The notes beneath the pieces were generated by a model, which saw only the letters and a program-made list of their open reading frames with translations, did not search any database and had not been told where the DNA came from. The translations under genes and the position numbers were made by a program. 48,545 nt of DNA from Actinomycetes bacterium (GTDB taxonomy: Bacteria; Actinomycetota; Acidimicrobiia; IMCC26256; PALSA-610), in NCBI GenBank assembly GCA_025463905.1, contig JAODBJ010000063.1:1-48545 (forward strand), given 5' to 3'. Shown here in pieces: positions 3,823 to 39,272 of the stretch. Numbering within the stretch: position 1 is the first letter of the stretch; the number at the start of each line of letters is the position of its first letter.

Positions 3823-3914
3823 CTGGAACAAGGCAAAACCGCAGGAATGCGGTGGCGCAAAGCCACGGAGCCCAGCCCTCGAAGCATCGAGGAGCGGCTA
3901 GCCGGGCTGCCCTG
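3823..3914 (+). ncRNA. Cyclic-di-GMP-I (GEMM-I) riboswitch aptamer
   Basis: AAGGCAAAACCGCAGGAATGCGGTGGCGCAAAGCCACGGAGCCC...AGCCGGGCTGCCC: GGAA (GNRA) tetraloop on stem CCGCA/TGCGG, GCAAAGCCACGG core, AGCCGGGCTGCC receptor strand; immediately upstream of a pilin gene. Confidence 0.92.
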
Positions 3915-3937
3915 AGGACCCGGTCCTGGCGGACGCG

Positions 3938-12141: not shown

Positions 12142-12621
12142 ATGGCCACGATCTTGTTGTTGTCGGGCCCGAACCTGAACCTGTTCGGCCAACGTGAGCC
12201 CGCCATTTACGGCACGCACACCCTCGACGACATGGTCGCGTCAGCTCGCGACACTGCCGCCCGGCACGGGTACGACTTGGAACACGTTCAGTCCAACCAC
12301 GAGGGTGCGCTCGTCGACGCCATCCACGGCGCGCGTGGCCGTTGCGCGGCGATCGTGGTGAACGCCGGTGCGCTCACCCACTACTCCTACGCGCTCGCCG
12401 ACGCCCTGGCGACCTTCGACGGCGTGAAGGTCGAATTGCACGTGTCGAACCCGAGTGCCCGCGACGAATGGCGGCACCTGTCGGTCATCGCTCCGGTGGT
12501 CACCGGTACGATCGCGGGTTTCGGTGCCGACGGTTACCGCCTCGCCCTCGATGCGGTAGCAGCCAGCCTGGCCGCTCCCGCGGTCGCACAATCGCCCCCC
12601 TCGCCGGAGGTCACACGATGA
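12142..12621 (+). CDS. aroQ: 3-dehydroquinate dehydratase, type II
   Basis: ILLLSGPNLNLFGQREPAIYGTHTLDD...VELHVSNPSARDEWRHLSVIAPV. Confidence 0.96.
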   Translation: MATILLLSGPNLNLFGQREPAIYGTHTLDDMVASARDTAARHGYDLEHVQSNHEGALVDAIHGARGRCAAIVVNAGALTHYSYALADALATFDGVKVELHVSNPSARDEWRHLSVIAPVVTGTIAGFGADGYRLALDAVAASLAAPAVAQSPPSPEVTR

Positions 12622-13730
12622 CGATCACCAGCCCGTCGCTCGCGCCGCTCGACATCGCGTCGCGCCTCGGGCGGTTACGGGCGCGGCTCGGCGACCTCGG
12701 TGTCGACGCGATGCTCGTGACGCGGCTCACGAACGTGCGTTACCTCACCGGCTTCACCGGTTCGGCGGCGATGCTTCTCGTCGGCCCCGACGCCGCCGTG
12801 TTCGTCACCGACGGCCGCTACCGCGACCAGTCGGCCGAGCAGCTGGGCGCGGCCGGCGTCGACGCGCGGGTCATGGTCGGCACGACGCTGGCGGCGCAGC
12901 GCGAGTACCTCGTCGAGGCCGCGGCGTCGTTCCGGCGGCTGGCCCTCGAAGACCACGATGTCACCTGGGCCCAGCAACGCGAGTTCGCAGCGGCGTTCGC
13001 GAACGCCGAACTTGTTCCGGCCGGCACACCGGTCGAAGACCTGCGTCGAGTGAAGGACGCGGGGGAGGTCGACCGAATCCGCGCCGCGTGCGCGATCGCC
13101 GACGACGCGTTCATGGAACTGGCTCCGAGCATGGGGTCGGGCATAACCGAGCGGCAGTTCGCGCTCGCGCTCGAGTTCGCGATGCGCGAACGTGGCGCGA
13201 GCGCAATGAGCTTCGACCCGATCATCGCGTCAGGGCCGAACGGCGCGATGCCGCACGCCCGTCCGTCGGACCGCGTCATCGCGCGCAGTGAGCTCGTCGT
13301 CTGCGACTTCGGATGCATCGTCGACGGCTACTGCTCCGACATGACCCGCACGGTGTCGGTGGGCGACCCCGGGCCGGATGCGCGCCACCTCTACGACGTC
13401 GTCCTCGCGAGTCAGGCCGCCGGTCGTGACGCGGTGGCAGTGGGCGCCGATTGCGCCGCCGTCGACAAGGCGTCGCGCGACGTGATCGACGCCGCGGGGC
13501 TCGGCGAGACCTTCTTGCACGGCACCGGCCACGGCGTCGGGCTCGACATCCATGAGGCCCCGCGGGTCGCGTCGAGTGCCCGTGATACCTTGCGCGACGG
13601 CGACGTCGTGACGGTCGAGCCCGGTGTGTACCTCCCCGGTGTCGGCGGCGTCCGTATAGAGGACACCCTGTTCGTCACGCCGGTTGGCCCGGTGCAGCTC
13701 ACCCTCACTCCGAAGGATCTGGTGCTGTGA
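12618..13730 (+). CDS. M24 family Xaa-Pro aminopeptidase
   Basis: VCDFGCIVDGYCSDMTRTVSVG; FLHGTGHGVGLDIHEAPRV; VTVEPGVYLPGVGGVRIEDTLFV. Confidence 0.94.
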   Translation: MTITSPSLAPLDIASRLGRLRARLGDLGVDAMLVTRLTNVRYLTGFTGSAAMLLVGPDAAVFVTDGRYRDQSAEQLGAAGVDARVMVGTTLAAQREYLVEAAASFRRLALEDHDVTWAQQREFAAAFANAELVPAGTPVEDLRRVKDAGEVDRIRAACAIADDAFMELAPSMGSGITERQFALALEFAMRERGASAMSFDPIIASGPNGAMPHARPSDRVIARSELVVCDFGCIVDGYCSDMTRTVSVGDPGPDARHLYDVVLASQAAGRDAVAVGADCAAVDKASRDVIDAAGLGETFLHGTGHGVGLDIHEAPRVASSARDTLRDGDVVTVEPGVYLPGVGGVRIEDTLFVTPVGPVQLTLTPKDLVL

Positions 13731-13861
13731 GCATCTCGACGAACGATCTCAAGAATGGCATGGCCTTAAATCTGCCGGGCCAGGCGCAGCCCGCAGGCGT
13801 GGTCAGTGTCGGCGGAATGATCGCCGTTCGCGATCGAACGCCTGAGGGCGTAGCCGCATGA
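13727..13861 (+). CDS. 44-codon ORF beginning with a truncated EF-P N-terminus, coupled to pepP-like gene and efp
   Basis: VSISTNDLKNGMALNLPGQAQPAGVVSVGGMIAVRDRTPEGVAA*; GTG overlaps upstream TGA (GTGA) and its TGA overlaps efp ATG (ATGA). Confidence 0.5.
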   Translation: MSISTNDLKNGMALNLPGQAQPAGVVSVGGMIAVRDRTPEGVAA

Positions 13862-13907
13862 GCATCTCGACGAACGATCTCAAGAATGGCATGGCGCTCA
13901 ATCTGCC
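13727..13907 (+). repeat. Direct duplication of the efp 5' end (copies 13727-13776 and 13858-13907)
   Basis: 37-nt identical core TGAGCATCTCGACGAACGATCTCAAGAATGGCATGGC, then AATCTGCC shared with 3 mismatches between; offset 131 bp. Confidence 0.95.
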
Positions 13908-14418
13908 AGAGGGCCTGATGACCGTTGTCGAGTTCCAGCATGTGAAGCCGGGCAAGGGTGGCGCGTTCGTCCGCACCAAGCTGAAGAACTATCGCACCGG
14001 CGCGGTCCTCGACCGCACGTTCCGGGCCGACGAGAAGGTGCCGCTCGCGGTGATCGACAAACGCGAGATGCAGTTCTTGTATCGCGAGGGCGTCGACTAC
14101 GTGTTCATGGACAACAGCTCGTACGAGCAGCGAAATGTTTCGCCGGAAGCGCTCGGCGACGCCGTGAACTACCTCAAAGAAGGCGACAGCGCCGTCCTTC
14201 CGACGTACAACGACGACGTCGTCGGCATCGACCTACCTGCGGCCGTCGAGCTCGAAGTGACCGAGACCGAGCCCGGCCTCCAGGGCGACCGTGTTTCCGG
14301 CGCCCGCAAATCCGCGACGCTCGAAACGGGCCTCGTCGTGCAAGTGCCGCTCTTCGTCGAAACCGGTGAGCGCATCAAGGTCGACACGCGCACCGGCGAG
14401 TATCTCACGAGGGCATGA
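13858..14418 (+). CDS. efp: Elongation factor P
   Basis: MSISTNDLKNGMALNLPEGLMTVVEFQHVKPGKGGAFVRTKLKNYRTGAVLDRTF. Confidence 0.97.
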   Translation: MSISTNDLKNGMALNLPEGLMTVVEFQHVKPGKGGAFVRTKLKNYRTGAVLDRTFRADEKVPLAVIDKREMQFLYREGVDYVFMDNSSYEQRNVSPEALGDAVNYLKEGDSAVLPTYNDDVVGIDLPAAVELEVTETEPGLQGDRVSGARKSATLETGLVVQVPLFVETGERIKVDTRTGEYLTRA

Positions 14419-29094: not shown

Positions 29095-29224
29095 TCCGCG
29101 CGTTCGCAGCGCGCAAGCGCGGGCCCGGTTGCGTGCTGCACCTTGCTCGCTATGCTGACTCGTCGTTCGGGGCGGCGGGCCAGAGCCATGGACGTCGCCT
29201 CCCAGGATCTTTCATGTTTCACAC

Positions 29225-30578: not shown

Positions 30579-31781
30579 TTGCAGCGTGTGGTCCTCGGGG
30601 TCGCCGGCGGGATCGCCGCGTATAAAGCGGTCGAGGTGTGCCGTCGCCTCGTCGATGCCGGCGTGCACGTTGCTCCCGTACTCACCGCCGACGCGCAACG
30701 CTTCGTCGGTGCCGTCACGTTCTCCGCGGTCGCGTCGGAACCCGCGCGCACCTCGTTGTGGGACGCGCCGGAACCGATCCCGCACACGCACCTCGGCCAG
30801 TCGGCTGACCTGATCGTGGTTGCGCCCGCAACCGCCAACGTGATCGGCAAGTACGCGGCAGGGATCTCCGACGATCTCCTTACGGCCACATTGCTCGCCA
30901 CCCGAGCGCCGGTGCTGGTGTGCCCGGCGATGCACACCGAGATGTGGGAGCACGTCGCGGTGCAAGAAAACATCGCCACGTTGCGCCGCCGCGGGGTGCA
31001 TGTGCTCGAACCCGAGGCCGGCCGCCTCGCGGGGGGCGATGTGGGCGCGGGTCGCCTCGCCGAACCCGGTGTGATCGCGGAAACCGCGCTCGCGTTGCTG
31101 GCCGGCGGAATCGGTGCACTCACCGGCGTTTCGGTGTTGGTCACGGCGGGCGGCACCCGGGAAGCGATCGATCCCGTCAGATTCGTCGGCAACCGCTCGT
31201 CGGGGAAGATGGGCCACGCGGTCGCGCGCGAAGCCGCGCGGCGAGGCGCAAGGGTCACCCTCGTCACCACGACGACGCCCGTTGCGCCGATCGCGGGCGA
31301 GATCGTGCCGGTCGAGAGCGCCGACGCCATGCACGAGGCCGTCATGGCGCACGCAGCAGGCGCCGACGTCGTCGTGATGGCGGCCGCGGTCGCTGATTTC
31401 CGGCCCAAGGCGGTCGCGGACCAGAAGCTGAAGAAGGGCGACGGCGTGCCCGAGGTCGTGCTCGAGCCGACCATCGACATCCTTTCCGCGCTCGGTCGCG
31501 CCAAACGCCCCGGCCAGTTCCTGGTGGGTTTCGCGGCCGAAACCGAGTCGGTCGTGGAGCATGCGGCCGCCAAGTTGCGGGCGAAAAATGTCGACCTGAT
31601 GGTCGCCAACGACGTTGCGGCCGAGGATTCGGGCTTTGAAGTCGACACGAATCGCGCCGTTTTGCTTGACTCCACCGGTCGTGCCTTGGAACTCCCACTC
31701 ATGGGCAAGGACGCGCTGGCGGGTCTCATCCTCGATCGGGTCGCAGACGCGGTCGCCAAGAAGGAGCCACAACAGGCATGA
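30579..31781 (+). CDS. coaBC: Phosphopantothenoylcysteine decarboxylase / phosphopantothenate-cysteine ligase (start TTG 30579 or GTG 30588)
   Basis: VVLGVAGGIAAYKAVEVCRRLVDAG; PAMHTEMWEHVAVQENIATLRRRG; RFVGNRSSGKMGHAVAREAARRGA. Confidence 0.95.
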   Translation: MQRVVLGVAGGIAAYKAVEVCRRLVDAGVHVAPVLTADAQRFVGAVTFSAVASEPARTSLWDAPEPIPHTHLGQSADLIVVAPATANVIGKYAAGISDDLLTATLLATRAPVLVCPAMHTEMWEHVAVQENIATLRRRGVHVLEPEAGRLAGGDVGAGRLAEPGVIAETALALLAGGIGALTGVSVLVTAGGTREAIDPVRFVGNRSSGKMGHAVAREAARRGARVTLVTTTTPVAPIAGEIVPVESADAMHEAVMAHAAGADVVVMAAAVADFRPKAVADQKLKKGDGVPEVVLEPTIDILSALGRAKRPGQFLVGFAAETESVVEHAAAKLRAKNVDLMVANDVAAEDSGFEVDTNRAVLLDSTGRALELPLMGKDALAGLILDRVADAVAKKEPQQA

Positions 31782-31807
31782 GTTTCCAGGCGCAGCCGAA
31801 TGAGTAG
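31778..31807 (+). CDS. Micro-ORF 1 in the coaBC-metK junction (MSFQAQPNE*)
   Basis: ATGAGTTTCCAGGCGCAGCCGAATGAGTAG; ATG overlaps coaBC TGA; TAG overlaps the next ATG. Confidence 0.35.
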   Translation: MSFQAQPNE

Positions 31808-31879
31808 CCAGGCGCAGATCCTCTGGTGCGGACCGGAGAGACTCGACTATGGAAGCGTGAGGTCGCAGCCGAATGAGTA
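31778..31879 (+). repeat. Interleaved direct repeats in the metK leader
   Basis: ATGAGTNNCCAGGCGCAG at 31778-31795 and 31800-31817; CGCAGCCGAATGAGTA at 31791-31806 and 31864-31879. Confidence 0.92.
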
Positions 31880-31880
31880 A
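31800..31880 (+). CDS. Micro-ORF 2 in the coaBC-metK junction (26 aa)
   Basis: [26 protein letters not shown]; stop TAA overlaps metK ATG (ATGAGTAA). Confidence 0.4.
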
Positions 31881-33069
31881 TCGCCACACGTTCACCTCCG
31901 AATCGGTGACGGAGGGCCACCCCGACAAGATGGCGGACCAGATCAGCGACAGTGTGCTCGACGCGGTCATGGCCGAAGACCCCTATGGCCGGGTGGCGTG
32001 CGAGACGATGGTCACCACCGGTCTCGTCGTGGTTGCCGGCGAGATCAGCACCAAGGCCTACGTCGACATCTCCCGTCTCGCTCGTGACGCCATCAACGCG
32101 ATCGGTTACACCGACGCGGCGTACGGCATCGACGGTCGTACGTGCGGCGTGATCGTGTCGCTCGACGAGCAGTCGCCCGACATCGCGATGGGCGTCGACA
32201 AGTCGCAGGAACAGAAGGTCGGCGGCGGCGACGCGTACGACGAAGTCGGCGCCGGCGACCAGGGAATGATGTTCGGCTACGCATGCAACGACACCGAAGA
32301 CCTCATGCCCATGCCGATCTGGCTCGCGCACAAGATGGCGCAGCGGCTCGCGCAGGTGCGCAAAGAACGCATCGTCGACCTGCTCCGCCCCGACGGTAAG
32401 ACGCAGGTGAGCGTCGAGTACGAAGACGGCGTCCCGACGCGTTTGAACACAGTGCTGATCTCCACGCAGCACCACCCGGGCGTGAACATCTACGACGAGC
32501 TGCGACCCGCGCTCATCGAGCACGTCATCCGGCCGTCGTTGCCGGCACAGTTCGCCGACGACGACTTCGAGATCTTTGTGAACCCCACCGGCCAGTTCGA
32601 ACTGGGCGGCCCGCACGCCGACTGCGGTCTTACCGGGCGCAAGATCATCGTCGACACGTACGGTGGCATGGCTCGCCACGGTGGCGGCGCGTTCTCAGGC
32701 AAGGACCCGACCAAGGTCGACCGCTCGGGTGCGTACGCGGTGCGCCAGATCGCGAAGGCGGTTGTCGCGGCGGGGCTTGCACAGCGTTGCGAGGCGCAGG
32801 TGGCGTACGCGATCGGTGTTGCCCACCCCGTGTCGATCATGGTCGACACGTTCGGTACCGGTGAGGTCGCCGACGAGAAGCTCGAAGCAGCGGTGCGCGA
32901 CGTCTTCGACATGCGTCCGGCCGCGATCATCGAGCGGCTCGACCTGCGGCGCCCGATCTTCAAGCGCACCGCGGCCTACGGCCACTTCGGTCGGAACGAC
33001 GGCGACGGGTTCACCTGGGAGAACGTCGACTCGTACGCCGCCGACCTGCGGCGCGCGGTAGGGGTTTGA
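31873..33069 (+). CDS. metK: S-adenosylmethionine synthetase
   Basis: [57 protein letters not shown]. Confidence 0.98.
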
Positions 33070-39044: not shown

Positions 39045-39050
39045 AAAACT

Positions 39051-39201
39051 GAGCCCTCGGGGTGTGGTGAAAGTCCCGACCGGCGGTGACTGGGCCTGGC
39101 CCAGAAGCCCGCGAACGCACGGCCGCCAGTCGTGCGCCGACCAGGTGAGCGCTCCGGCGCAAGTCCTGGGCCGACGGTAAGAGTCCGGATGGGAGAGGGC
39201 G
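39051..39201 (+). ncRNA. FMN riboswitch (RFN element)
   Basis: CTCGGGGTGTGGTGAAAGTCCCGACCGGCGGTGAC...AAGCCCGCGA...CAAGTCCTGGGCCGACGGTAAGAGTCCGGATGGGAGAGGGCG; P1 GCCCTC/GAGGGC. Confidence 0.96.
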
Positions 39202-39272
39202 AATGGGGTCGGCGTGAGCATCACGTCCGGCTTGTCGTTCGCGCGCACCTCGGAGGCACCGAAGGAGCAAAG

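Follow-up and report, generated by a model that had tools for sequence, protein, structure and literature searches.

A small dispersed repeat, probably mobile, at in-operon start codons in a family of Acidimicrobiia

Mycobacterial interspersed repetitive units (MIRUs) are used worldwide for typing tuberculosis strains, and they reportedly lack dyad symmetry, as Supply et al. are said to have noted in 1997. They are short (40–100 bp) and are dispersed in operons as single or tandem units (PMC12548453, PMC2734929). MIRUs appear mobile: they are described as inserting at start codons, which leaves the ORF inside the unit coupled to the host gene by an overlap of −4 nt (PMC12548453). Also comparable are REP/REPIN sequences and their RAYT (TnpA-REP) transposases, in which imperfect palindromes are dispersed in many copies, and bicistronic design, in which the stop codon of a short ORF overlaps the gene start and the Shine–Dalgarno (SD) site of the gene lies within that ORF.

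We analyzed a 48,545-nucleotide stretch of DNA (the window) from a member of the Acidimicrobiia, in which positions 13777–13857 are one copy of a dispersed 70–95-bp element. In several soil-type actinobacteria, the element is found at many loci, some of them in tandem, at start codons with NTGA overlaps, and its ORF overlaps the downstream start by 4 nt. Compared by architecture alone, its likeness to MIRUs appears close in kind. In contrast to MIRUs, it resides in a family of Acidimicrobiia rather than in mycobacteria, it has a conserved stepped hairpin where MIRUs reportedly have no dyad symmetry, and one copy (that at efp) has an unusually long target duplication of ∼48 nt. We call the element MIRU-like, not a MIRU. 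The anatomy of bicistronic design is shared as well, although that design is synthetic and engineered, whereas the element is natural and dispersed. We consider it highly probable that the sequence is a small dispersed repeat, probably mobile, which occupies in-operon start codons and duplicates the start site, and whose leader would chain translation.

The junction between the aminopeptidase gene and efp

Pfam confirms both neighbors of the leader ORF, which are an M24 aminopeptidase gene (pepQ-like, 12618–13730, forward strand; PF00557, PF01321) and efp (13858–14418, forward strand; EFP_N, EFP, Elong-fact-P_C). The initial annotation reported that the start of efp recurs upstream, and this repeat is real: 13728–13776 and 13859–13907, both on the forward strand, agree at 46 of 49 positions, lie 131 nt apart and are identical over the first 37 nt. 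The three mismatches are all synonymous (GCC-TTA versus GCG-CTC). A 44-codon ORF described in the same place (VSISTNDLKNGMALNLPGQAQPAGVVSVGGMIAVRDRTPEGVAA, 13727–13861, forward strand) is indeed open throughout. Its GTG start lies in a GTGA that overlaps the TGA stop of the peptidase gene, and its TGA overlaps the efp ATG in an ATGA. Residues 1–17 are the N-terminal start of EF-P; the remainder (13777–13861) matched nothing in Pfam or Rfam, and the 44-residue product matched no Pfam family. The leader has a TTA leucine codon at 13766–13768, and nine genes of the window together contain 1 TTA in 2633 codons.

On the forward strand, the element itself (13777–13857) has the left end GGGCCAGGCGCAG and the right end TGAGGGCGTAGCCGC, with the efp ATG directly after it. 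It brings an SD-like TGAGGG (13843–13848, forward strand) that is situated 9 nt 5′ of this ATG. The left copy of the efp start has a native SD-like GAAGGA upstream. When the aminopeptidase–efp junction was examined in relatives, the element was absent: in five genomes of the same family (G001, G002, G008, G011, G013), the overlap is a plain GTGA and the native efp start is GTGAGCATCTC. Because the pepQ–efp junction of relatives is empty, the left GTG is identified as the native efp start. The extra material is thus not an upstream copy of the start, as had been proposed, but the element plus a second copy of the start region behind it. Likewise, the part of the repeat that was annotated as having diverged is the dispersed element, which is present before many unrelated genes. 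A plain tandem duplication of the efp start was rejected, since the inserted part recurs elsewhere in the genome.

The genome is a metagenome assembly in 366 contigs and has short tandem arrays, as might be expected of an artefact of assembly or of a local duplication that arose by chance. However, the two copies carry three synonymous differences, and several independent assemblies carry the inserted sequence at many loci, again in this architecture. The initial argument against an artefact, which relied on the mismatches, becomes stronger because this architecture recurs in independent genomes, and we regard an artefact or a chance duplication as hardly credible.

Distribution and anatomy of the element

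The window's own genome holds ∼12 copies. A BLAST search with 13700–13910 against this genome matched 13780–13863 in tandem arrays and at single sites (best E 1.2e-8). A unit typically measures 72–95 bp, and tandem arrays consist of 2–4 copies. On contig 6, three copies in 86-bp steps lie 5′ of an enoyl-CoA hydratase-like gene, and on contig 263 a weaker match with two copies lies between an acyl-carrier-like gene and a ketoacyl-synthase (fabF-like) gene. The right-end pattern revealed further copies before a proteasome alpha-like gene (prcA), metK, an epimerase-like gene and others. The prcA-, fabF- and sufS-like host genes were checked with Pfam.

The metK site is in the window. Between a coaBC-type flavoprotein gene, which ends at 31781 and is the upstream neighbor of metK, and metK itself (31873–33069, forward strand, checked with Pfam), a second, degenerate element pair occupies 31778–31880. 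One member (31783–31804, forward strand) has an internal deletion and a micro-ORF at 31778–31807. The other, for which metK lies on the 3′ side (31805–31877, forward strand), has a micro-ORF at 31800–31880, whose TAA stop overlaps the metK start region. One micro-ORF encodes MSFQAQPNE. Elsewhere in the window, an FMN riboswitch (39049–39204) and a c-di-GMP-I (GGC) riboswitch (3823–3915) match above the gathering score.

The R1 covariance model, for which seven copies of the own genome were used, scores the efp copy at 89.3 bits and the degenerate metK copy at 52.7 bits. Its matches listed number at least 61 in G001, at least 17 in G008 and at least 14 in G013, with few or none elsewhere; 80 regions were fetched. 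A second model that contains no start codon (R2) scores the efp copy at 82.7 bits (13779–13857, forward strand) and finds the element in at least 9 of 296 genomes of the class, of which seven are one family and two others have single hits. Extended to 397 genomes of the phylum, the R2 search listed no match in any of the 396 others. Among the matches listed, copies of the element amount to at least 59 in a relative of another genus (G001) and to at least ∼15 and ∼10 in two others. These genomes are without exception drafts, and most of those with a matching record derive from metagenomes; tandem copy numbers may be off. An Rfam search at element loci matched no family, the right-end pattern had no exact match in viral contigs, and a degenerate DNA pattern run genome-wide on contigs gave chiefly chance hits.

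A typical copy reads, from the upstream gene to the downstream gene, (A/G)TGA-nnn-GCCAGGCGCAGACC-...-GGAGGTCG(N)AGCCGC-ATGA. For the R2 matches listed in G001, an ATG or GTG occurs 0–4 nt after the right end in 56 of 59 (46 of these 56 starts open at least 60 codons), and an ATGA or GTGA start/stop overlap is present at the left end in 50 of 59. Over all genomes, the left NTGA is found in 91 of 103 copies, versus a background of 18%. A start-to-start distance of 2 mod 3 was measured for 74 of the 91 copies that carry NTGA on the left, and in 74 the leader stop lands precisely at position +1 of the start that follows. All 75 in-phase ORFs are free of internal stops, versus 28 and 14 with such stops in the other two frames. 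Of 87 right ends, 42 have GGAGGT 9 nt 5′ of the start. Seventeen single copies have a GTG start on the left and an ATG start on the right, and therefore the A comes with the element.

Sites without the element were also recovered at other loci. For five or more other insertions, the orthologous junctions of two congeners are without the element; when the flanks of sites in G008 and G013 are joined, they align to the empty orthologs in G002 and G011, where there is a single overlap. The exception is L133/L149, a few bases 5′ of the start. Empty sites were taken as ancestral without an outgroup tree, and they could in principle be deletions instead. For single copies, the run common to both flanks from the TGA onward averages 4.36 nt, versus 3.85 ± 0.09 in permuted data (0 of 5000). 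The target duplication is typically 3–6 nt, and the efp copy, with 48–49 nt, is extreme. Because its 49-nt duplication far exceeds that of the other sites, the efp case requires an unusual step or a second event.

Mean identity among copies of one genome is ∼66–73%, and from their sequences the copies appear to be old and diverged. For this reason, recent movement is visible solely as tandem duplication, and movement as a mobile element is suggested by sequence comparison. Could the unit be a REP-type palindromic repeat spread by a Y1/RAYT transposase, with its location at start codons being secondary? The stepped palindrome with GNA/GNA internal loops, the high copy number and the fact that in three other genomes some copies lie between convergent genes would fit. 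However, REP sequences are 20–40 bp and extragenic, whereas this element has 70–95 bp, is read as an ORF, and in nearly all copies in four genera sits at start codons of genes in operons in one orientation, the same as the host gene, with few extragenic copies elsewhere. A search for a transposase or source element identified none, and Y1_Tnp is absent from every element-rich genome, all being drafts; spread of the REP/RAYT or IS200 type was rejected on this basis. We judge a REP-type origin to be quite unlikely.

Several copies depart from the typical arrangement. At L153 (G005), L154 (G049) and L155 (G036), copies are found not at start codons but at the ends of genes or between genes that converge; these off-start copies are on short contigs, and some are without ATGA. 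At L142 (G013, near 580–620) and L290 (G001), the left end of the element is fused in frame to a gene N-terminus (e.g., MSMSQAQNGGADKKIEIYDTTLRDGS), and repeat sequence appears now to be part of the protein start. At L305 (G000:C208, ∼29121–29150), right-end-like sequence ends the upstream gene and left-end-like sequence (GTGAGCACCCAGGCGCAG) opens the next, which resembles a solo junction of two copies.

Hairpin folding and translation of the leader

The arms of the predicted hairpin are GC..GGC-GNA-GNCC-GNA-GGCGC and GCGCC-GNA-GGNC-GNA-GCC-GC. RNAalifold, run unguided, yielded the same structure in 38 copies from other genomes; 95.1% of hairpin cells are paired. Changes on both sides of a pair affect 25 hairpin cells, compared to 4.3 ± 1.7 in shuffles (0 of 500). 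The modeled stepped hairpin is thus supported by compensatory changes. A local left-arm hairpin (GACCGC-AGGC-GCGGTC) was rejected as weaker than the long-range one, with 80% versus 95% of cells paired.

One function for such a leader would be dedicated regulation, in which the ORF and hairpin tune EF-P synthesis, either by attenuation or by acting as a decoy for initiation, while the sister copies form a regulon. The hairpin and the ORF phase are conserved, the leader contains a rare TTA codon, and the efp SD site is calculated to be mostly paired (unpaired probability 0.17), opening to 0.66 when the leader is held unfolded. Across 63 copies, however, the SD unpaired probability is 0.37 versus 0.36 in control coding windows. 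Since calculated SD occlusion is not above controls, coupling via hairpin melting is not supported in general, and the hairpin was rejected as a general SD lock. Protein-level constraint on the leader peptide was looked for by codon position, and no sign of it was found: differences per pair at positions 1–3 are 10.6, 12.9 and 9.9. The third codon position is not where most of the variation lies, and a different frame is used at the start of several copies (MRARRQ...); a conserved leader peptide was rejected on these grounds. In addition, the host genes are functionally unrelated, and relatives of the same family lack the element at the efp junction. A dedicated regulatory leader is therefore unlikely, and the suggestion that the small ORF tunes EF-P levels found no specific sign in its favor.

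The initial annotation also proposed that the small ORF feeds ribosomes to efp. The overlaps, the open frame and the GAGGG 9 nt 5′ of the ATG fit this idea, and 74 of 91 sister elements are built alike. What does not hold is an efp-specific role, because the element precedes many unrelated genes (fabF, prcA, metK, sufS-like and others).

In the preferred reading, that of a probably mobile repeat at start codons, the element would have inserted at the GTG that natively starts efp and overlaps the stop codon of the peptidase gene, and left the first 49 nt of efp ahead of it. It would have brought a new SD site and an ATG, with the start region repeated behind it, so that the remnant and the element together would form a leader ORF running from the former efp start to the new efp ATG. 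Ribosomes that end the peptidase would begin the leader at GTGA, read its 44 codons and initiate again on efp at ATGA. The operon would tolerate the insertion because ribosomes should pass from the peptidase through the leader to efp. Leader translation and re-initiation on efp are predicted here from the arrangement of codons. Since the ORF phase is kept and the peptide is unconstrained, the simplest reading is that insertions preserving termination–reinitiation survive, which rests on established translational coupling (PMC12548453). We infer that neutrality, rather than regulation, is the cause of persistence.

A second repeat family and wider implications

A second repeat family, AGCGTGGCCC-AGCGGCCCGG-CGCCGAAGGCGCC-AGGAGCGGAAGC-ATGAG, is unrelated in sequence to the first and lies at the same pepQ–efp junction in G016 and G051. 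At L019 (G016, ∼1420–1505) and L031 (G051), it has overlapping ORFs or start–stop overlaps at both ends. Its matches listed number at least 51 in G016, other families of the order have several, and it was noted in G016, G044, G001, G040, G030 and G000. Of 46 inspected copies, 10 are fully coupled, and many merely follow a stop codon. These observations suggest that stop/start junctions in the order attract more than one repeat family.

A more tentative proposal is that micro-ORF elements which target start codons constitute a general class of mobile DNA in bacteria, one that has arisen more than once. The present family, with its stepped palindrome, would then be unrelated to MIRUs and would spread through a mechanism not described so far, in which its TGA end would anneal to a target start codon and 3–49 nt of the host gene would be duplicated. 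We regard this generalization as possible but somewhat doubtful.

The gene starts annotated in element-bearing genomes may have been displaced, or they may be fused to sequence derived from the repeat. The filled and empty sites, and the single and tandem copies, are natural experiments for measuring termination–reinitiation, and they offer a comparative route toward the mechanism that moves such units. That uncultured Acidimicrobiia can have dozens of copies in one genome, lying before essential genes, suggests that repeats live within operons by translation-coupled insertion more broadly.
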